IMG/VR virus record: IMGVR_UViG_3300009285_000971
Span: 1-23,181 of that record
Strand: one strand, 5' to 3'
Source: a virus
DNA length: 23,181 bases
Shown: piece by piece, positions 377 to 13,464 of the stretch
Numbering within the stretch: position 1 is the first letter of the stretch
Layout of the letters: each line of letters opens with the position of its first letter
Position numbers and translations under genes: made by a program
The notes under the pieces: generated by a model
The model's database searches: none
What the model saw: the letters and a program-made list of their open reading frames with translations, nothing else
What the model was told of the DNA's origin: nothing

Positions 377-2890
377 CTATTCTCTAACCCAAATTCTACT
401 TATGTTTATATAAAGAAAATTTGGCGTACCTGTAACAGTACCGGTTTCGATGTTTGCGCCTTCTAGTGCCGTAAATGTACCATTCGATTGAATAGCGATA
501 GTGGATGTTGCCGTACCACAGGTTATTTGATTTGAATCATTATCTTGCGCGTCTGTAAGATTCACCACAATCGAAGTTCCTCCCCAGACAGAACAAGTTA
601 TAGAGATTGCGGAGTATCCATCAGGTTCGGAAGGGAGTCCTATAAGTTTCGCCGAAGAAAATCCGTTAAAGAAAGGAGCTGATGTCGAAGAAACCCTAAA
701 TCTTAATCCGCTTTTTGAAGGAATCACTATCGGGTCGTTGTTTGTTGAGGTTGCAATGAGAAACTGATTATCTGATAGGTCAAGAGCGACTTGACCCCTT
801 GTACCCATTATTGGCGCATCTCCTTGAGGAATTGTTAAATATCCTGTGGAAGTTATGTGAAGGTTCGTTGTTGTGGCCTCTGTGGTAGTAGCGAATCGGA
901 CAAAGAGTCGGTCAATCGTGGATGAGGACGTAGTAAGAATCCCCACGGCGGTTGAAGTAGGACGAATTGCAAATTGACTTTCAAAACTCCAGTTAGAGCC
1001 AGTGCCTGCTCCAGAATCAGCGTCAACCCCATCGCAAAGTCCCGCGCCTCCAGTGATTGTAGCACAATCAGGAGTCAGAACGCCTGCGGTATTTATCAAT
1101 CCCGTACCCAAAAGATTTGTGAAATGTTGAGAGTTAATTCTCAAAGCTCCTACATTTTGAGTTCCCGTGGTAGTAGCGTGAGTGGATGTAGAAAGCGTTG
1201 AAATAAGATTATTGATTGTTTGTATCCCAGTCCAAGTATTCGGATTCGCCAAATTAAGCCCGATAGTTCTTGCCGTACTTCCGTTGTACGTTCCTGAAAA
1301 GGTAAGAGTCCCGTCAGTCGCTGTTAAATCAGCTAGATTTGAACCAAGAGCAATACCTGAAATAGTGGAATTGGTCAGATCTGTGTTAGCAACCGAAGCG
1401 CAAATCGCCACCCCTAAAGCCGATAGAGAGCGCGGGAATTGATTAGTACACGAAGTTCCTGTGTATTCAGCTAAAATTCCTCCTGCTCCGGCCTGAACCA
1501 AAGCAGAAGTAAGACCGTCAAAATCCACTTGTCCTGACACGTTAAGAGTTGTTGAAGTTGCGTCTGTGGAAGTCGCATTTCTTGCAAACAACCCCTGAAA
1601 AGTTGAAGAAGCGGAAGTTACGAGTAGTCCTATGGTCGTTGTGGGGGCTAGAGAGAGGTTCCCCGTGGAGTTTGCGGCGTTCATATCCCACGTCTTCCCG
1701 TATCCAAGAGCGTTTTGTTTAGCGTTAAACGTAACCCAATCAGCCGCCGCTAGGCATCCGAACACACCCGAGGTAGCGGTATCACACGCCATATCGTCTC
1801 CCGTGAGAGTAAGCCCGACTCCTCCGGTTAAATTCGTATCGGCAGAAATATCTATTCCTGAAATACTTGTTGAATCGTGAAGATGCGAGTTATCAGTAAC
1901 TGCTATCGCAGAAAGCGTTCCGGTAACGTCTCCGCCTACTGCAAGATCGGCTACGTTTGCATCTGTAATACACGCGGTACAAGTTATGGTTACGCCTCCG
2001 GGAAGCGTTGCTGCGCCGGATACGTTAAGAGTATTAAACATCGTATGCCCGGAAACCGAAAGCACGCTTGTAGTGGCTTCTGTCGTGGTGCCATATCTGA
2101 CAAACAATCTGGCTATGGATGACGAAGCAGTATGTAAGGTTCCCGCGCTAAAGGTTTGTAAGCCAGTCCACGTGTTCGCGTTTCCTAAATTAAGTCCAAT
2201 GGTACGCGCTGTTTGGCCATCGTAAGCCCCTGAAAAGGTCAAGGTGCCATCTGTTGCCGTGAGATCAGCCAAATCTACGTCTGTTGCCACTACCGTTGCA
2301 CACGTAGCCGCGCCGAGCGCAGAGAGAGAACGGACATACTGATTCGTACATGAGGTTCCAGCGTATTCGGCGGTTATTCCTGTAGCTCCGGTTTGAACAA
2401 GAGCAGAGGTAAGCCCGTCTACATCTAACTGTCCTGTCACATTAAAATTTGTCGTGGTTGCGTTTGTAGTAGTTGCTTCTTTTACAAATAACCCCTGAAA
2501 AGTTGAAGAAGCGGAAGTGATAAGAAGTCCCACGGTTGTGGTTGGTGATAATGAGATTTGTCCAAGGGAATTAGCGGCGTTGAGTTCAAAGGTCTTACCG
2601 AAATCAGCACCGCCGCCTCCGCCTGCGCCAGTTGCGTCTGTCCCGCAAGAAAAAATACCTGAAGTTGAGGATTTCACGTCACAGTTCGCGGCATTAAGGG
2701 CAGATACCGTAAGATTAGTTGTAGAAGCATTTTGAGTATAAATCCGAAGCCACGTTCTTAAAGGAGACGTACTACCAATTTCGTAGGTATTATCAAGAAA
2801 TGGTAATATATTCTGTTCGTATCTTGTCGAAGGCAAAGCAAAAGTAACAGAAGGTATCAAAAGAAAAACTATAGCAAGAAGTTTTTTCAT
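377..2890 (-). CDS. Large modular tail-fibre / surface-adhesin-like protein with signal peptide
   Basis: This 837-residue protein is probably the phage's main receptor-binding fibre or a fibre-like surface protein. Residues 1-19 look like a cleavable signal peptide (MKKLLAIVFLLIPSVTFA, then LP). Residues 28-50 carry the motif ILPFLDNTYEIGSTSPLRTW, which resembles the (D)NTYDIGS segment of many phage fibre repeats. Two copies of a module begin at residues 98 and 398, and a partial third lies at 633-683. Each contains LADLTATDGTLTFSG.Y.G..ARTIGLNL and SSTFQGLF..ATTT.ATTT..NVSG. The C-terminal 140 residues (about 695-837) are unique, with beta-rich composition, and may form the tip. The Ser/Thr-run style is common in Parcubacteria proteins. 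The gene overlaps the collagen-like gene by ATGA. It is clearly more GC-rich than its neighbours: one sampled 60-base line is about 52% GC, against about 33% in the nearby endonuclease. A host-derived adhesin is the main alternative. Confidence 0.75.
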   Translation of the reverse strand: MKKLLAIVFLLIPSVTFALPSTRYEQNILPFLDNTYEIGSTSPLRTWLRIYTQNASTTNLTVSALNAANCDVKSSTSGIFSCGTDATGAGGGGGADFGKTFELNAANSLGQISLSPTTTVGLLITSASSTFQGLFVKEATTTNATTTNFNVTGQLDVDGLTSALVQTGATGITAEYAGTSCTNQYVRSLSALGAATCATVVATDVDLADLTATDGTLTFSGAYDGQTARTIGLNLGNANTWTGLQTFSAGTLHTASSSIARLFVRYGTTTEATTSVLSVSGHTMFNTLNVSGAATLPGGVTITCTACITDANVADLAVGGDVTGTLSAIAVTDNSHLHDSTSISGIDISADTNLTGGVGLTLTGDDMACDTATSGVFGCLAAADWVTFNAKQNALGYGKTWDMNAANSTGNLSLAPTTTIGLLVTSASSTFQGLFARNATSTDATSTTLNVSGQVDFDGLTSALVQAGAGGILAEYTGTSCTNQFPRSLSALGVAICASVANTDLTNSTISGIALGSNLADLTATDGTLTFSGTYNGSTARTIGLNLANPNTWTGIQTINNLISTLSTSTHATTTGTQNVGALRINSQHFTNLLGTGLINTAGVLTPDCATITGGAGLCDGVDADSGAGTGSNWSFESQFAIRPTSTAVGILTTSSSTIDRLFVRFATTTEATTTNLHITSTGYLTIPQGDAPIMGTRGQVALDLSDNQFLIATSTNNDPIVIPSKSGLRFRVSSTSAPFFNGFSSAKLIGLPSEPDGYSAISITCSVWGGTSIVVNLTDAQDNDSNQITCGTATSTIAIQSNGTFTALEGANIETGTVTGTPNFLYINISRIWVRE
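1211..1699 (-). repeat. Tail-fibre repeat unit B (residues about 398-560)
   Basis: Second copy of the fibre module, starting GKTWDMNAANS and ending NTWTGIQTIN. It keeps the exact 300-residue register of unit A over its first half, then gains about 11 residues (around NSTISGIALGS). Conservation at both DNA and protein level implies tandem duplication within the gene. Confidence 0.85.
2141..2599 (-). repeat. Tail-fibre repeat unit A (residues about 98-250)
   Basis: First copy of the fibre module, starting GKTFELNAANS and ending NTWTGLQTFSAG. It is matched by a second copy 900 bases further along the gene. A 29-base stretch at 2490-2518 is identical to 1590-1618. Confidence 0.85.
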
Positions 2891-3846
2891 ATTGAGTAGA
2901 AAAATCCTAGTTGACTTCCAGAACCGGGAGCATTAACTACTGTTAATGTTAATGTAGTTCTATCGGCACCACTTATAGTAAACCCGTTATTTTCAAATAA
3001 AATAGAGGGAAAATCAGAGCCAACAACAAAATGAGCTTTACGATTGTATGGTACTGTAAAAGTCAAAGTAGAACCATCTGTTGAAGTCGAAAGGTCTTTC
3101 ATATAACTTATATCACCTCCTCCGCCTACATTCTCAAACTGCATACCAACAGGGTTTTTACCTATTTCGTCTACTGCTCTCATTATAGCTTCAAGTCCTT
3201 TTATTTGTGAGGGGTCAATCTTTTTTAATGCAGAGTTGATTTTAGCGATAACTTCTTCAGGAGTATCAGGCGAACCATTTTGACCATCTCTACCCGCGGG
3301 ACCTATAATAGATTTCCCGTCTTCACCATTCTTACCATTCTTTCCCGGTCTCCCTGTTTCACCCTTTAATCCTTGAAGTCCTTGTTCACCTCTAGTTCCT
3401 TGTATACCTTGTTCTCCACCTTCTCCTTTTTCTCCTTTTTCACCCTTATCTCCTTTAATAGTTACCAATTCAGCCCCTTTAATTTCAACTTTCATCTCTG
3501 TCGGGAACTCTTCTGGTTTTGGTGGTTCTTTTTTACTAATATCCTTTAGGAACTTATTTGTTATAAGTCCGGCACTCTTTATCTCTTCGAGCTTCCGTAC
3601 TACCATTTCAGGATGATGAATATCGTCTTTTAAACTATCAATAGTTTTTATGGCTTCTTGGAGATTTCTAATAGTTCCTGTAAATCCTAATGTTTCAGTA
3701 GATTTATCTCGTGTGGAATTTTGAAGTTCTTGTAATTTAATTCTAAGTTCATCAAGTTTCTGATTTGTTTCAGAAATACGCTGAATAGTCCCATCAGAGT
3801 TGATGGCGAGTTTTTCTTCTGGGGATTGGTGAATAAGGTGTTTCAT
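2887..3846 (-). CDS. Collagen-like fibre protein
   Basis: A 319-residue trimeric-fibre candidate. Residues 20-100 are charged and heptad-like (coiled coil). Residues 132-191 form a collagen-type Gly-X-Y tract of 16 uninterrupted triplets (GDKGEKGEKGEGGEQ...), a two-residue break, then about three more triplets; this corresponds to bases 3274-3453. A glycine cluster near residue 243 (VGGGGD) leads to a beta-rich C-terminal domain of about 75 residues ending GSGSQLGFFYSI. Phage collagen-like proteins usually form rigid trimeric shafts of tail fibres, which fits its place just ahead of the large tail-fibre gene. It overlaps both neighbours by four bases (ATGA), so translation is coupled. Collagen shaft is seen directly; the trimer and fibre role are inferred. 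Confidence 0.8.
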   Translation of the reverse strand: MKHLIHQSPEEKLAINSDGTIQRISETNQKLDELRIKLQELQNSTRDKSTETLGFTGTIRNLQEAIKTIDSLKDDIHHPEMVVRKLEEIKSAGLITNKFLKDISKKEPPKPEEFPTEMKVEIKGAELVTIKGDKGEKGEKGEGGEQGIQGTRGEQGLQGLKGETGRPGKNGKNGEDGKSIIGPAGRDGQNGSPDTPEEVIAKINSALKKIDPSQIKGLEAIMRAVDEIGKNPVGMQFENVGGGGDISYMKDLSTSTDGSTLTFTVPYNRKAHFVVGSDFPSILFENNGFTISGADRTTLTLTVVNAPGSGSQLGFFYSI

Positions 3847-4688
3847 TTTGTTATAGAAATACTAACTTGTCCGGTCTGTAAAAAATGTTTATTTCTCGGA
3901 CGTCCCCAAGTGTCTGTTTTTTTATGACAATCCTTACAAAGAGTTCTACCATTATTTATATCCCAAAATTCTTGACAATTCATGGCGTCATCTAAGGAAC
4001 TTATATTATTCTCATAGAAAATTTGAGCAAAAGTTTTAGGATAATGGTCTACATTTAACTCTGCTCCTCTTTGTTTACATTGTTGACAAGTATAGTTATC
4101 ACGTTCAAAAATAGTTTTCCTCCATTGTTTATATTCAAGTAGTATTCTAATTTGGTCTAATAAAGGAGTTACTCCACCTTTCCAATTTGAACCGTTTCCC
4201 CCTCGGTTTGCCAAACTTAAATTCTTACGATGTTCGGTAGTAAAAATCTTATTACGTAATTTCTCTATAGTCTCTAAAGTTGGATGAGTTCCCAAACGTG
4301 CAAGTGAGAATTTCTTTCGAGTTTCTTCAGAAAATGTTCTTCCTTTAAGTTTTTCACTCATTTTTTTCTTACTTTCTTCAGTATGTTTTCTACCAGAGAA
4401 TGATACTTTTCTTCCTATATCTTTTGCGTACGTACTCATTTTCTTTTTTGTCTCTTCAGAAAGTTTTTTTCCGAGCCAATATTTAATTCCACCATTTTTA
4501 TAGTATTTTTTAATTGTTTCACTAATTTTCCTTCTAGAGGCATCTGAAAACTTGTATCCTGTATGAAGAAGAGATAACTTTTTTCTCGTTTCGAAAGAAT
4601 GCAAATACCCTAAAGTTTCCTTTCTTTTTAGTCTACTTTCACTCATTTTCTTACGAGTTTCGTCTGTATGATGTCTTCCCGTGAACAT
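3843..4688 (-). CDS. Free-standing HNH homing endonuclease with a long NUMOD3 array
   Basis: A 281-residue probable DNA endonuclease. Residues 1-160 are a tandem array of about six to eight NUMOD3-type DNA-binding helices, each with a core like S.ET.KKMS...KG (for example at 8-17, 31-41, 49-58, 76-85, 102-111, 119-128, 150-159). Residues 169-190 carry the linker WKGGVTPLLDQIRILLEYKQWR. The nuclease domain follows: zinc knuckle C201-C204, catalytic-type DH at 214-215, the NNGRTLCKDCHKK segment with C251, C254 and H255. NUMOD3 modules often follow a GIY-YIG domain; none is present. The array is long for the family. It has its own promoter-like sequence, and it ends by an ATGA overlap with the collagen-like gene. 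Its AT-richness (about one third GC in a sampled line) suggests separate origin. Likely a selfish element rather than a virion part. Confidence 0.88.
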   Translation of the reverse strand: MFTGRHHTDETRKKMSESRLKRKETLGYLHSFETRKKLSLLHTGYKFSDASRRKISETIKKYYKNGGIKYWLGKKLSEETKKKMSTYAKDIGRKVSFSGRKHTEESKKKMSEKLKGRTFSEETRKKFSLARLGTHPTLETIEKLRNKIFTTEHRKNLSLANRGGNGSNWKGGVTPLLDQIRILLEYKQWRKTIFERDNYTCQQCKQRGAELNVDHYPKTFAQIFYENNISSLDDAMNCQEFWDINNGRTLCKDCHKKTDTWGRPRNKHFLQTGQVSISITK

Positions 4689-4689
4689 A

Positions 4690-4718
4690 TTGACTTTTTT
4701 GTATTTATACTATATAAT
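4690..4718 (+). promoter_or_regulatory. Plus-strand sigma70-type promoter TTGACT-17-TATAAT
   Basis: TTGACT at 4690-4695 and TATAAT at 4713-4718 are separated by exactly 17 bases: five of six and six of six matches to the sigma70 consensus. It points opposite to every other gene in the window. A start of transcription near 4725 would leave only about eight bases before the ATG at 4733. Confidence 0.55.
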
Positions 4719-4725
4719 TATAGCA
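4717..4725 (-). promoter_or_regulatory. Extended -10 promoter (TGCTATAAT) for the HNH gene
   Basis: Read on the minus strand, this is a perfect extended -10 element, TGCTATAAT. The hexamer ends 29 bases before the HNH ATG at 4688, which predicts a leader of about 20 bases. No good -35 is seen at 17 bases (AGATAA), but extended -10 promoters do not need one. It overlaps a plus-strand -10. Confidence 0.55.
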
Positions 4726-4732
4726 TACTTAT

Positions 4733-4843
4733 ATGTATTTTATCTACTGGTTATTCATAGTCCTCGTATTCTCCGTGTTTTTACTGGGAGCGATTATGGA
4801 CTTTTCTCGGTTTCTCTGGAGAAAATTTCAGAAAAAAGTTTAA
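4733..4843 (+). CDS. Candidate 36-residue membrane microprotein, antisense to the operon
   Basis: A short plus-strand reading frame of 36 codons plus TAA. It encodes one strongly hydrophobic segment (MYFIYWLFIVLVFSVFLLGA, then I), followed by a basic, aromatic tail with RFLWRKFQKKV, so it would be a single-pass inner-membrane protein with a cytoplasmic positive C-terminus. The first 20 codons lie in intergenic DNA; the last 50 bases are antisense to the end of the ejection-protein gene. A near-consensus promoter ends 15 bases upstream. There is no Shine-Dalgarno sequence and the leader would be nearly absent. Size and layout resemble type I toxins, small holin-like proteins or superinfection-exclusion peptides, but no family is recognised. 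Chance is a real alternative, since AT-rich DNA readily encodes hydrophobic residues. Confidence 0.4.
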   Translation: MYFIYWLFIVLVFSVFLLGAIMDFSRFLWRKFQKKV

Positions 4844-6254
4844 GAATCGCTGTCTGTTGAGCCGGAGCTAATCCTTCAAGAACAGGGGACACTTTTGTTA
4901 AGGCATCTATTGCTTTTGCGGCTGTTATCTTAAATGGTACTGATTCAATAGCTCGTCGTGCAGCTACTCCAGCTATTGCTCCATAAATACTACCACCAAA
5001 ATAGCCTCCAAGTCCTCCTCCAATAAAATCTCCAAAACTCAATACTTGATTACCGGCTTTTCTTGCTATTCTCTCAAGGAGTCCATCTCTAAAACGGATT
5101 TCATTTGAAAGTTCTGTAAATAGTCTACGAGTTCCTTCTGGGGCTTTATTTTTTACTACTTCTCTTAAATTATTTGCAAATTGTTTAAGAATGATTTTAT
5201 CTGAACTCAATTGTCCTCCCAAAAACGCTCTATCTCCAAGAGTTCTATCTACGAGTTGTCGTAATCTGTTTGCTTCTTCAAGAGTTAATGACGATTTAGA
5301 TAATAACTGTTTGGTTTGAGGCGCTAACCTCATTACAATTGTCTTTATGTCGTCTCGTTTAAGTAAAGCTCCTTGAGCTTCAGGAATTTTAGCAAGATTA
5401 TCGAGAAAACTATTAGTTCCGATTGTTATTTTTGCTCCTGATTTTCTTGCCGCTGAAGAAAGAGCAGAATTGATTTTATTGCTTAATACCTCTACCGCAG
5501 ATGATGATTCGTTAAAATGAGTGTTAGCTGACTTTAACGCTGACTTATTTTGTACTACGTATTTTGCAAAATCATCCACTTTATCTTTTGCAATATCGTT
5601 TAATACTTGTGATTTATTTCTACTCAAAGCACTATTAACAAACCGTGCTGGTAATTGCTCAATTTGTTTACCGATAGCTCGTAATCCAGCTCCTGCAATC
5701 GGTAAAGCGGCTCCAACGGCTCCACCGACGAGTGTACTTTTTGTTACGTCTTTTATACCTCCTCCTTCTGATATTGCTTTTGTACCACCAAGACCCGCAC
5801 CAAGTCCTATAGTTTTTAATAAACGACTTGTAAAGTTGCCTGTAGTTCCAACTCCTTTTGTACCAGCTACTGTCAATCCTATATTAGCAACGTCTCCTAA
5901 TACCTGTTTCGGAGAAGGTGCTGATATATCGTAAAACTGAGAATTATCTTGTTTTCCAAGTAAACCTTTTGTTTTTTCAAACGCTAAACCTCCAAGTGTT
6001 CCGATTGCCTGTCCAACTTGTTCTCCAGGGAAAACTTTATTAACAATGTTAGTAGTTTTTTCGAGTACACCTTTTTTAGGTTGTATAACTTCTGGTTGTA
6101 CTACAGATACAGACTCTCCTGACGTTTGTACCATATCTTGATATTGAGGATATTTTACAAGCATTTTTTGTCCTAATTCAGCATCAGGAATATCACTATA
6201 CTGTGGGTATTTTTGTTTAATAGTTTGTCCAAATTGTTCTAATGTTTTAGTCAT
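4794..6254 (-). CDS. Internal virion / DNA-ejection-type protein with glycine-rich hydrophobic segments
   Basis: A 486-residue protein placed where P22-like phages encode ejection proteins. Residues 11-44 hold two copies of a KYPQY motif separated by a D..DAELGQKML helix, a short repeat I associate with phage internal proteins. Then come Gly/Ala-rich hydrophobic stretches (around LLKTIGLGAGLGG, TLVGGAVGAALPIAGAGLRA and near the C-terminus FIGGGLGGYFGGSIYGAIAG) that could insert in membranes, with a helical, lysine- and leucine-rich middle. Such features suit proteins ejected with DNA to form a channel through the cell envelope. No lytic or enzymatic motif is visible. It overlaps the preceding gene by ATGA. 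The role rests on composition and gene order. Confidence 0.6.
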   Translation of the reverse strand: MTKTLEQFGQTIKQKYPQYSDIPDAELGQKMLVKYPQYQDMVQTSGESVSVVQPEVIQPKKGVLEKTTNIVNKVFPGEQVGQAIGTLGGLAFEKTKGLLGKQDNSQFYDISAPSPKQVLGDVANIGLTVAGTKGVGTTGNFTSRLLKTIGLGAGLGGTKAISEGGGIKDVTKSTLVGGAVGAALPIAGAGLRAIGKQIEQLPARFVNSALSRNKSQVLNDIAKDKVDDFAKYVVQNKSALKSANTHFNESSSAVEVLSNKINSALSSAARKSGAKITIGTNSFLDNLAKIPEAQGALLKRDDIKTIVMRLAPQTKQLLSKSSLTLEEANRLRQLVDRTLGDRAFLGGQLSSDKIILKQFANNLREVVKNKAPEGTRRLFTELSNEIRFRDGLLERIARKAGNQVLSFGDFIGGGLGGYFGGSIYGAIAGVAARRAIESVPFKITAAKAIDALTKVSPVLEGLAPAQQTAILKLFSEIFSRETEKSP

Positions 6255-8090: not shown

Positions 8091-8558
8091 TTATTTTTTA
8101 TGTGGACATTTGCCATAAAAACCTTTTGCCATATTACAATTATGGCAAAGAATTTGAAATCCATCAGGGAATCCTTCTCTAATAATCCATCTATATAACC
8201 CCGACCCTTTCTTTTGTGGGTCAGTGAGTCGTTCTTGCCTACCACCTCCGTTTATATGATCTATACAAAGGAATTCATAGGTAATTTCTCCGCAACAATT
8301 ACAACTCATTGTTCCATTCGAATAGTATTTGAAAACCGCAAGACGGCATTTTAATCTCCATTTCTTCATTGTTTCGTTTGACTTTATACGAACATAGTCC
8401 TTATTTTTGTTTCGCCATTTTTTATGTTCCGTTTTCCTATATTCAATATTTTTTTCTCGCCATAAAGTATCTCTACAAGTTGTTGAACAAAAAATTTGAT
8501 GAGGATGTCTAAAACTCGTCTTAAATTTTTTAGTACATTTCTTACAATTTTTCACCAT
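8091..8558 (-). CDS. Free-standing HNH endonuclease with N-terminal zinc ribbon
   Basis: A 155-residue HNH (His-Me finger) nuclease of the type common in phages. N-terminal zinc-binding cysteines are C5, C8, C24 and C28 (CKKC and CSTTC). A lysine/arginine-rich linker of about 50 residues follows. The nuclease core has CNCCG at 86-90, the catalytic FLCIDHINGGG at 96-106 (D100, H101), YRWIIREGFPDGFQ, then LCHNCNMAKG at 137-146. This is the IDHINGGG...LC.NCN.AKG subfamily, different from the NUMOD3 enzymes elsewhere in the window. The ATG lies inside the end of the upstream appendage gene (overlap of seven bases). It interrupts the structural module and is probably a mobile homing gene. Confidence 0.88.
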   Translation of the reverse strand: MVKNCKKCTKKFKTSFRHPHQIFCSTTCRDTLWREKNIEYRKTEHKKWRNKNKDYVRIKSNETMKKWRLKCRLAVFKYYSNGTMSCNCCGEITYEFLCIDHINGGGRQERLTDPQKKGSGLYRWIIREGFPDGFQILCHNCNMAKGFYGKCPHKK

Positions 8559-10188: not shown

Positions 10189-11400
10189 TCATTGTGAAAC
10201 CCACGCCGGAATAAGACGGGGCGCGATATTACTCGCTTGTAAAACATACTTCAAAGCACTTACCGTTGGCGAAGTACCAGTAGATGTTGTTTTCATTACA
10301 TTATGAAGACCTGCTGGAATCCGAGAATCTTTTGAACCCCATGCCCACACGCAACCTGCAACAGCTGGATTTGTTGTAAATCCTCCCCAGACGATTCTAC
10401 TTCCTAAAGCGTCTACAGCTCCAGCAAAAGGTGGTAAACCTTCCTCTTGGAACACAATCTCCGAAACCGACTCACCACCGATATATTTCAATAATCGAAC
10501 TCCATTTTGAGCGTTCCCTGTCCAAACATAAATTGCACCATTTACATTCAAACATGCTGTTGCAAGAGGATCAGTAAAAAATATCGGTCCAAGGTAGAAT
10601 GAAACTGTATCTGTCGGGTCCCATAAAACGAATGCTGATTTCCCTTGATTAACTGTAGTATCAACAGTATAAATTCCCGTAATAAACAAACTCTTTGAAA
10701 AACTTTCGATTGATGTCGGATAGAATCCAAACGGCAAATCAAGTGCATTATAAGCAGATACCACCGTAGTTCCGTTAGTATCACCTTCGTCTGTTACCTT
10801 TTTCGTATTGATTCTGTGAACTAACCCTTGACCATTGATAAAATCTAAGAAGTAGAGCGAGTTATCGCCGTGAACATGAGCAACATGATTTGGCATTGAA
10901 ACCGAACGCAACGTTGGGTATGTGGTGTTAGTAAGAGCTGTTTGAGTACCAAGTGTTGCACCTTTCCACGCGTTATCCACAAGCGTGGGAGAATTATTCA
11001 ATGGTCCATAACGTGAAACGTCATCAGTTGAAGCACCTGTCCCAAAAATGTAAATATAATTATTGTAGTACTCTGCCCATGTTGCTGTACCTCCAGCAAC
11101 TGTTCCAATAAGGGTCTCTGACGCTAAAGATGAATTATAAGAAATGAGTCGTCCATTTGATAACACAACGTATGTTAAGGTATTTTTAGGATTATTTAGT
11201 ATCCGCACCACTTGTGAGGTTACATTTGCTCCAGAAAAGACAGCTGACCCCACAGGTACACAAAATCCTGATGTTCGAGTATCAGTTGAAAGTATGGGCA
11301 AATCGGGATCAACGGCAGTTGACGCATTAAAAGTTCCCTCAGTCCCAAAATACTGGCTTGCCGACCACCCTTTGAAAATTTGATTGATAGGAAGTTTCAT
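10189..11400 (-). CDS. Beta-propeller-like tail/neck protein (P22 gp10-like by position)
   Basis: A 403-residue protein with repeated beta-strand pairs suggesting a propeller: YVVLSNGRLISYNSS, YNNYIYIFGTG, GDNSLYFLDFI, KSLFITGIYT, VNGAIYVWTG, GSRIVWGGF, each a strand with a W/Y/F and Gly turn. The C-terminus carries GSKDSRIPAGLHNVMK and ALKYVLQASNIAPRLIPAW. In P22 the gene after the gp4 adaptor encodes gp10, a propeller that plugs the tail hub; here the order is the same, so a hub or neck role is plausible. It overlaps the adaptor gene by ATGA. The gp10 comparison rests on gene order and inferred fold, not recognised sequence identity. Confidence 0.6.
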   Translation of the reverse strand: MKLPINQIFKGWSASQYFGTEGTFNASTAVDPDLPILSTDTRTSGFCVPVGSAVFSGANVTSQVVRILNNPKNTLTYVVLSNGRLISYNSSLASETLIGTVAGGTATWAEYYNNYIYIFGTGASTDDVSRYGPLNNSPTLVDNAWKGATLGTQTALTNTTYPTLRSVSMPNHVAHVHGDNSLYFLDFINGQGLVHRINTKKVTDEGDTNGTTVVSAYNALDLPFGFYPTSIESFSKSLFITGIYTVDTTVNQGKSAFVLWDPTDTVSFYLGPIFFTDPLATACLNVNGAIYVWTGNAQNGVRLLKYIGGESVSEIVFQEEGLPPFAGAVDALGSRIVWGGFTTNPAVAGCVWAWGSKDSRIPAGLHNVMKTTSTGTSPTVSALKYVLQASNIAPRLIPAWVSQ

Positions 11401-12539
11401 AACTCTACAAAAAGATTAGGATTTGAAATCTCTTCTTCTTCTCCCGGATCTAACACAGCATTTCCTTTACTTCCGTGGTCTCTTTTCATTTGTTCGTACC
11501 CTTCTTTGAACATTTTGTCATATAATTGTGCTTTAGAAGAATTTGGTTCAACTGACGTAAAGTAAATTTTGAGTGCCTCAAACACTGGTAACTGATTATG
11601 GGGTTCAGGAATCAATGAAACTTCTCCTATAATGTATGCCGCCGCGGCTCCAGTTGTTAAAGATGTTCCATTATAAGTTCTACGTAAAATAAGAGTTGTT
11701 GAGGAAGTTACAGCGTCAATTTCATACCAATATCCATCACCTGATGAAGCCGCAGTATTTGAATGAGTCACTCGTAACCATCGTCCTGCCATAGGAGTTG
11801 TCCATGCAGGTGTTCCTGAACCAGTTACTGATGTGGAACTATTTGTGATTATATCTATATTTCCTGTAGTATAATCCGCTATTGACAAATCTCTTGCTAT
11901 TCGTCGCGCATTGATACTAACCACATTGCTAGTTGATGGCCGTGGCAATATCTCAATCGCGTCATCATAGACAAAATAATGTGTAGGAATGTCTGAAGAC
12001 CTTTGAACCTCGTTCAATCTATCCCACTGTGTTCGAGACGAAATCTCTTTAGGTACATATCGGTAACTTCCTGCTGTTATGTAGATACTCTGCGGTTTAT
12101 AAGTATAGACAGGAAGCATGTACCGTTGAGTCAAGACCGTATGCGTTCCTGATTGACTTCCTGAAGTATTAACTGCTGTTCCACCAATTGTGGTTGACAC
12201 TTGAAATGCATTAGCTGTCAAACCTGCCACAATAACATAATACGTAGTTCCCGCCGTAAGACCTGTTGGAAGAACACCTGTTGTCGAGAAATACACTGCC
12301 GTATCAATACTGAATTTATGTGCCGTTAAGGTGAAAACTGCTGGCGAGGCAATTGTTACAGTAACCGTACTTGCTACTGAGGAAAGATTATACTGTTTCC
12401 ACAAAAACGGCCAATCACGAGATGAGATGATTCGTTTTTCTGAATCGTTCATAAGGGAATCCAACAATGTAAGAGTTGCTGACGCAGAGTTATTGCATAG
12501 ATTTCCTGCTAAGTTCCTACGGCCAGTATAAGTAAGCAT
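11397..12539 (-). CDS. Head-tail adaptor / tail accessory protein (P22 gp4-like) with two inserted beta domains
   Basis: A 380-residue protein. The core is split: residues 1-58 (LDSLMNDSEKRIISSRDWPFLW), 138-225 (YMLPVYTYKPQSIYITAGSYR, then PTHYFVYDDAIEILPRP) and 304-345 (GEVSLIPEPHNQLPVFEALK) match the pattern of phage adaptor proteins that join portal to tail. Between them sit two beta modules: residues 60-137 (STTGVLPTGLTAGTTYYVIV, then NAFQVST), the small domain databases call E1_FCCH-like, and residues 226-303 (SVTGSGTPAW..PMAGRWLRV...WYEIDAV), another common phage beta module. These are probably surface decorations. It is followed by the propeller gene, as in P22 (gp4 then gp10). The adaptor role is inferred from pattern and order. 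Confidence 0.65.
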   Translation of the reverse strand: MLTYTGRRNLAGNLCNNSASATLTLLDSLMNDSEKRIISSRDWPFLWKQYNLSSVASTVTVTIASPAVFTLTAHKFSIDTAVYFSTTGVLPTGLTAGTTYYVIVAGLTANAFQVSTTIGGTAVNTSGSQSGTHTVLTQRYMLPVYTYKPQSIYITAGSYRYVPKEISSRTQWDRLNEVQRSSDIPTHYFVYDDAIEILPRPSTSNVVSINARRIARDLSIADYTTGNIDIITNSSTSVTGSGTPAWTTPMAGRWLRVTHSNTAASSGDGYWYEIDAVTSSTTLILRRTYNGTSLTTGAAAAYIIGEVSLIPEPHNQLPVFEALKIYFTSVEPNSSKAQLYDKMFKEGYEQMKRDHGSKGNAVLDPGEEEEISNPNLFVEL

Positions 12540-12542
12540 AAA

Positions 12543-13055
12543 CTATTTTTTTCTTGGATTATTCTCTCTGAATAAACTCCAACCCACTTTTTTATGACAT
12601 TCCTTACACAAAGTACGACCATTGTCTATAGCGAAACGAAGTTCTGGAAACAAAGAAAAAGGTTTTATATGGTCAGCTTCAAGTTTGCTTCCATGTTTTT
12701 TACCCCCAAAAATACAATGATAGTTGTCTCTTTCAAAAACTGATTTTCTCCAAAGTTTGTATTCTAACGATTCTCTAATCATACTGTTTCTTGACGTGAC
12801 TCCTCCTTTCCAAGCCCAATGTTTTTCACCATATATTGAAGATTTTTTTCCTTTATTCCCCGGAATCATCCCTTTATGTACATCACTAAGTTTTTTTCTT
12901 ATCTCAAAAGAACGTTTTTTTCCTATATTTGCTATTCTAATTTTCTCTATAGTTTCTTTTGATAAAGGTTTTTGTTTCCCTTTCCAAAATCGAGCATGAT
13001 TTTTTCTGATTTTTGCTTTTATGTACTCTGAAAGTTTTTCTCCTTTTTGTGCCAT
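12543..13055 (-). CDS. Free-standing HNH endonuclease with NUMOD3 motifs
   Basis: A 170-residue protein counted from the ATG at 13055; an in-frame TTG at 13073 would add six residues but overlaps the upstream gene. Residues 30-70 hold NUMOD3-like helices (LSKETIEKIRIANIGKK, FEIRKKLSDVHKGMIPGNKG), followed by WAWKGGVTSRNSMIRESLEY and the nuclease core: C114, then ADHIKPF with D128-H129, and NGRTLCKECHKK with C150, C153 and H154. The second cysteine of the first zinc knuckle, expected at 117, is glycine (CIFGG), so zinc binding may be altered or the enzyme weakened. It shares the linker and NGRTLCK.CHKK core with the enzyme at 3843-4688, so the two are related. Inserted between the coiled-coil gene and the adaptor gene with gaps of only 7 and 3 bases. 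Confidence 0.87.
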   Translation of the reverse strand: MAQKGEKLSEYIKAKIRKNHARFWKGKQKPLSKETIEKIRIANIGKKRSFEIRKKLSDVHKGMIPGNKGKKSSIYGEKHWAWKGGVTSRNSMIRESLEYKLWRKSVFERDNYHCIFGGKKHGSKLEADHIKPFSLFPELRFAIDNGRTLCKECHKKVGWSLFRENNPRKK

Positions 13056-13062
13056 ACTAGAA

Positions 13063-13464
13063 TTATAGACCAATCTGTTTACTCTTCCAACGCTCCTCTA
13101 AGTCTAAGACAAATGTTTCTCGCAATTTCAATTTCTTTTCCTTTTCAGTAAGTTCATAGAAGTACTCATCGAGTTTATCTTGTTTTGCTATAAGTCCATA
13201 GTATATTTCTTTTTTTTGCTCAATTTGTTTCTCAATACTTACTAGTTCTGTCAACAATCCCGATTTCTTATCGGTTATATCTTTAGAAAACTGTTCAAAT
13301 TCTTTCAATTTCTTTAACTTTTCTGGGTCATAATTTTCTCGGACATTATTGAGTTTCTGAGTAATTTCTCGCCAAAATCTACGCAATCGAACATTAGTAT
13401 CTACTAATTCGTCATTCTGCTTTTTCAAACTCGACTCGGCTTCTTTTTGAGAAAGAAGTTTCAC
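13063..13464 (-). CDS. Coiled-coil protein, 133 residues
   Basis: A highly charged, almost entirely helical protein with heptad-like Leu/Ile spacing from about residue 5 to 125 (KLKKLKEFEQFSKDITDKK, LVSIEKQIEQKKEIYYGLI, ELTEKEKKLKLRETFVLDLE). No membrane segment or enzyme motif is visible. The start is GTG at 13464, adjoining the TAA of the preceding gene (TAAGTG); no internal methionine offers an alternative. Its place between capsid-completion genes and the tail adaptor suggests a minor structural or assembly protein, but no function can be named. Confidence 0.75.
   Translation of the reverse strand: MKLLSQKEAESSLKKQNDELVDTNVRLRRFWREITQKLNNVRENYDPEKLKKLKEFEQFSKDITDKKSGLLTELVSIEKQIEQKKEIYYGLIAKQDKLDEYFYELTEKEKKLKLRETFVLDLEERWKSKQIGL

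Follow-up and report, generated by a model that had tools for sequence, protein, structure and literature searches.

The window, the whole 23.2-kb stretch of DNA that was analysed, is a virus record and an incomplete contig in which every clearly annotatable gene lies on the minus strand, as the initial annotation had described. These genes encode a terminase, a portal, the major capsid protein, tail proteins, a putative ejection protein, an HNH protein and a fibre. The capsid protein is closest to Manatee Spring phage and TM7 phage DolZOral124 (~32% identity), so that a host among the Patescibacteria is plausible. Opposite this late operon, a short plus-strand frame runs into the 3' end of the ejection-like gene, and two divergent promoter-like sites lie in front of it (Table 1).

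Table 1. Features at the locus and in its surroundings (window coordinates)
Feature	Position	Strand	Basis or remark
Collagen-like fibre gene	2887-3846	-	
HNH homing endonuclease with NUMOD3 repeats	3843-4688	-	NUMOD3 1.4e-19; HNH/homing PHROGs; divergent, shares -10 region
Sigma70-like promoter TTGACT-17-TATAAT, for the microprotein	4690-4718	+	11/12 consensus; predicted +1 A4725
Perfect palindrome TATAATTATA, common to both -10 hexamers	4713-4722	both	sequence
Extended -10 promoter TAGATA-18-TATAAT with TG before the -10, for the HNH gene	4717-4746	-	10/12 consensus; predicted +1 ~4710
Candidate 36-codon single-helix membrane microprotein, convergent with the ejection-like gene	4733-4843	+	translation, predicted helix, positional homologues in L003, L004, L005 and L010
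Putative ejection / internal virion protein gene	4794-6254	-	486 aa; 3' end overlapped by microprotein frame
Ser/Thr-rich protein, 837 aa	in the window	-	

The plus-strand frame translates to MYFIYWLFIVLVFSVFLLGAIMDFSRFLWRKFQKKV. Structure prediction gave one continuous hydrophobic helix over residues 2-35, with a basic tail (mean pLDDT 93), and the Kyte-Doolittle 17-residue maximum (KD17) was 2.75. The first 20 codons lie outside the ejection-like gene, and the frame then overlaps its last 50 nt (4794-4843) in antisense. Together with a predicted leader of 8 nt to the ATG at 4733, this agrees with the nearly leaderless, one-helix, basic-tailed frame that the initial annotation had proposed. 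Searches with the microprotein against Pfam, PHROGs and NCBIfam gave no match or insignificant ones. Taken alone, the window frame is not decisive as evidence of a gene (shuffle probability 0.014).

The plus-strand promoter consists of TTGACT at 4690-4695, a 17-bp spacer and TATAAT at 4713-4718. On the minus strand, the extended -10 element TGCTATAAT occupies 4725-4717, with TAGATA 18 bp upstream. When all 46,352 positions on both strands of the window were ranked by log-odds sigma70-like scoring, from which the promoter rules of the host may differ, the plus-strand site ranked first. Among 3000 Markov resamples of these 75 nt, 4 reached its score, and it stood at the 99.8th percentile of the regions that precede ATGs. 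The minus-strand site scored 9.8, and the divergent pair (4713 on the plus strand, 4722 on the minus strand) was the best in the window, with a minimum score of 9.8 against 7.9 for the next pair. The overlapping promoters with a shared symmetric -10 region, as first proposed, were thus confirmed as sequence features. Promoter-like sites in total were not in excess in a simple consensus scan (24 versus 27.9 expected), so that only the rank of the plus-strand site is notable, not its existence. The second-best plus-strand site, TTGACC-18-TATAAT at 3280-3309, lies antisense within the collagen-like fibre gene.

The predicted starts of the pair, A4725 and ~4710, are 15 bp apart, and the minus-strand leader to the HNH ATG at 4688 would be ~22 nt. 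This layout resembles the bidirectional bacterial promoters with symmetric -10 elements described by Warman, Grainger and colleagues (PMC10268837, PMC12825309), in which the -10 elements of opposite strands overlap; such promoters are defined by starts 7-25 bp apart, with a mode of 18 bp (PMC10268837). In the window, where the pair is read from sequence only, the spacing is shorter than that mode, the plus-strand arm also has a near-consensus -35 element, and each arm carries a coding frame.

The overlap with the ejection-like gene stands, whereas the name "ejection protein" used in the initial annotation is putative. The protein includes a hydrophobic, Gly-rich stretch, its sole PHROG match is weak and of unknown function, and its low-confidence structure model (mean pLDDT 57.7) found no match in a fold search. 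No homologue was found in the genome contigs searched, and the sole match among sequenced phages was N-terminal, in Maribacter phage Panino; the corresponding proteins of L010 and L004 had no match among sequenced phages. Scans of viral contigs, differently seeded with ejection proteins, provided no more than four informative relatives. The ejection-family set therefore comprised five members, namely the window and the usable IMG/VR relatives L003, L004, L005 and L010, whose ejection proteins are 68%, 51%, ~40% and ~40% identical to that of the window, respectively. Two further records, L006 and L007, match the protein in its N-terminal part only. Neither the terminase nor the portal of the window was found in the other ejection-family records, which may be fragments; this result fits a mosaic late module.

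All four relatives carry an antisense hydrophobic ORF across the stop codon of the ejection gene, with lengths of 45 aa (L003), 40 aa (L004), 25 aa (L005) and 20 aa (L010, where the product has no basic tail). An antisense ATG ORF with KD17 of at least 2.6 crossed the stop at 5/5 ejection-family ends, compared to 5/655 of the remaining gene 3' ends of these phage contigs (Fisher 2e-10). With KD17 of at least 2.4, the counts were 5/5 and 8/655 (Fisher 1e-9), and when stop-crossing ORFs at this threshold were counted only at ends followed by a gap of at least 30 nt, they were 5/5 and 2/232 (Fisher 3.5e-9). Dinucleotide-preserving shuffles of each intergenic segment gave probabilities of 0.011 to 0.11 per phage, with a product of 2e-8. 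Both the Fisher and the shuffle values assume independence and are overstated, since the five lineages are related.

Conservation of frame and promoter in related phages, which the initial annotation had suggested as a check, was seen for the frame, which recurs by position in 5/5, and in part for the promoter. A strong promoter ranks 5 of 34,090 in L010, with the ATG following almost directly as in the window, whereas L003 and L005 have no strong promoter directly in front of the frame. At the level of the peptides, the alignment score of window and L003 was reached by 0/1000 shuffles; similarity was weaker for window and L004 (1/1000) and for L003 and L004 (3/1000), marginal for window and L005 (17/1000), and not seen for the L010 peptide in the same shuffle-tested alignments. 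In the 20 codons outside the overlap, the frames of window and L003 differ at 13, 5 and 14 sites at codon positions 1, 2 and 3, and this conservation of second positions is as expected if hydrophobicity is what is kept. A column-shuffle coding test (0/4000) was biased, because the alignment had been chosen in frame, and we relied instead on a null that also searched alignment offset and frame; with this null, the intergenic similarity of window and L003 had a P of 0.017 to 0.038. The evidence for selection on the exact sequence of the microprotein is thus modest. The case for a gene rests mainly on position, and the microprotein appears to be conserved by place rather than by sequence.

A chance frame in AT-rich antisense DNA, next to a chance promoter, would account for the single-sequence shuffle probabilities of up to 0.11 and for the weak sequence conservation beyond L003. 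Joint recurrence in 5/5 against a background of ~1%, and the coincidence with the top-ranked promoter of the window, make such an origin very unlikely. The locus could also be regulatory and non-coding, in that the plus-strand promoter produces an antisense RNA or transcriptional interference directed at the late operon's 3' end, with the hydrophobic frame being incidental. The top-ranked promoter and a transcript antisense to a late gene are in line with this, as is the report that RNAs diverging from bidirectional promoters are often antisense and non-coding (PMC10268837). Regulation of this kind has no need of a hydrophobic ATG frame, yet the frame recurs in 5/5 homologues and in several non-homologous slots. 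Furthermore, the folding of RNA from 4725-4900 was ordinary (z -1.25), and a search of Rfam returned no match. We thus regard a purely regulatory locus as unlikely. The frame is probably a real, undescribed and unannotated phage gene rather than a chance frame.

The non-homologous slots come from syntenic phages, which were found through the tail gene at 10189-11400 and whose ejection-position gene, assigned by gene order, does not match the ejection-family profiles. A convergent minus-strand membrane ORF was present at the end of this gene in 5/16 covered syntenic phages (L026, L029, L034, L053 and L055; Fisher 4.5e-6). A weaker ORF of 34 aa (KD 1.94) in L025 starts 7 nt after TTGACT-17-TAGAAG, and several syntenic phages have no convergent membrane ORF. 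In L053 and L058, the opposite strand past the end of the ejection-position gene holds an extended series of additional genes that are apparently non-virion, which suggests that the microprotein is part of a non-late programme. In three phages, the ejection-position gene ends with ITC-stop (L047:15372), ITC-stop (L027:11985) and IACK-stop (L038:18938), and the next gene starts immediately (MAYCL, MAFCI and MYCLI, respectively). This repeated adjacent-gene layout possibly represents a split protein; a frameshift or intein signal was not established at these junctions.

The gene neighbourhood in several phages bears on whether the peptide acts in lysis timing, as a small holin, pinholin or antiholin encoded off the late strand. 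Probable lysis genes directly follow the ejection-position gene in L032, L040, L043, L051 and L052, and the single-helix peptide of L010 is divergent from a peptidase (PHROG metallo-endopeptidase/endolysin) that is followed by a holin-like ORF. That ORF also means that L010 already has a holin candidate beside its peptidase. A strand opposite the late genes and a host-type promoter of its own are unlike usual holins, and no lysis gene or endolysin was recognised among the proteins scanned in the window, itself an incomplete contig. A lysis function is quite unlikely in our estimation.

The convergent overlap further recalls type I toxin units, in which the mRNA of a hydrophobic toxin is neutralised by a 3'-overlapping RNA, here the late ejection mRNA. 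The yonT/SR6 system of prophage SPbeta and its relatives (PMC5848175, PMC6562991) share with the microprotein a small hydrophobic single-helix product and the convergent 3' overlap. They differ in having a dedicated promoter for the antisense RNA: within the final 300 nt of the ejection gene, the highest-scoring site on the sense strand ranks 380 of 46,352 (window) and 362 of 34,090 (L010), and the overlapping transcript would be the late virion mRNA. Better sense-strand sites do occur in L003 (rank 7) and L005 (rank 14). A toxin-like peptide had been among the initial suggestions; its small hydrophobic helix is predicted here, but the promoter of a dedicated antisense RNA was found in neither the window nor L010. 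A classical type I toxin is accordingly less likely, and we consider it highly improbable.

A further suggestion was that the frame had been brought in with the homing gene. The gene at 3843-4688 is a free-standing NUMOD3 HNH homing endonuclease and a neighbour of the microprotein, not part of the unit. In L005, L010 and L025, the frame is present and no HNH gene adjoins it, and in L003 and L004 the HNH genes are of another family (phrog_374/3377), share the strand of the frame and end 1 to 12 nt upstream of it. A third arrangement with an HNH gene near the frame occurs in L029. An origin of the microprotein as a passenger of the window HNH gene was therefore rejected, since relatives keep the frame without that gene. 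These arrangements suggest that the microprotein is the more stable element, around which HNH genes come and go. In L003, a promoter-like site similar to that of the window, TTGACTTTTT, lies immediately ahead of the next late gene's start codon, and the HNH gene is located between this site and the frame. Three HNH-like genes are found within the 23 kb late operon (3843-4688, 8091-8558 and 12543-13073), two of which are mutually related.

On the basis of position, open frame, helix prediction, promoter rank and recurrence in relatives, we put the probability at roughly 0.6 that the 36-codon frame is a real gene whose single-pass membrane product is made off the late programme. The gene, on the strand opposite the late virion operon, would have a host-type (sigma70-like) promoter of its own and the 8-nt leader. 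The non-late direction and the host-type promoter make production in the early phase of infection, or in lysogeny from the resident phage genome, the most likely timing. The peptide would insert in the inner membrane of the host, its basic C-terminus towards the inside, where it may alter the membrane or an entry partner, and late transcription through the gene from the other side would shut it off. The size of the peptide, its single helix, the host-type promoter of its gene and the place of that gene led us to this exclusion-type role, which we propose tentatively; exclusion or membrane modulation nevertheless seems a likelier function than control of lysis or type I toxicity.

Single-pass phage membrane peptides include exclusion peptides and small holins, and the microprotein is like them in size and in its single helix. 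It likewise shares with the phage small proteins reviewed in PMC11323111 its size, a single helix and a likely host-directed product, and differs from them in having no family match and in being conserved by place. Genes this short are usually missed by automatic callers, particularly if they lie antisense to a long gene, and a fixed position can bring to light genes that have diverged in sequence past recognition. More speculatively, the frame may represent a widespread unannotated class of membrane microproteins whose genes occupy one set place, converging on the last ejection-position gene, and whose phages perhaps infect Patescibacteria. Such peptides would be conserved by place and physical character and not by sequence, would be expressed from a host-type promoter on a nearly leaderless transcript and would be turned off by colliding late transcription, so that the DNA-entry gene and the peptide would be mutually exclusive in time. 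If true, such a membrane peptide, conserved by place and encoded opposite the virion operon, would make a good candidate for host-membrane management or for the exclusion of rivals in a poorly studied phage group.

Two observations concern other late genes. A domain of ~80 residues (residues 55-135 of the product of window gene 11397-12539) is missing from that gene in many relatives and sits inserted in the neighbouring tail gene of L022 (10286-10528); it is apparently a mobile domain in tail proteins. In L022, ~950 nt (L022:4710-5664) also interrupt the major capsid gene between residues ~229 and 255 (numbering of the window protein). This insert carries an HNH-containing open frame (CVICGTKDNLCVHHIKTRK...) and is probably an intron with a homing endonuclease.
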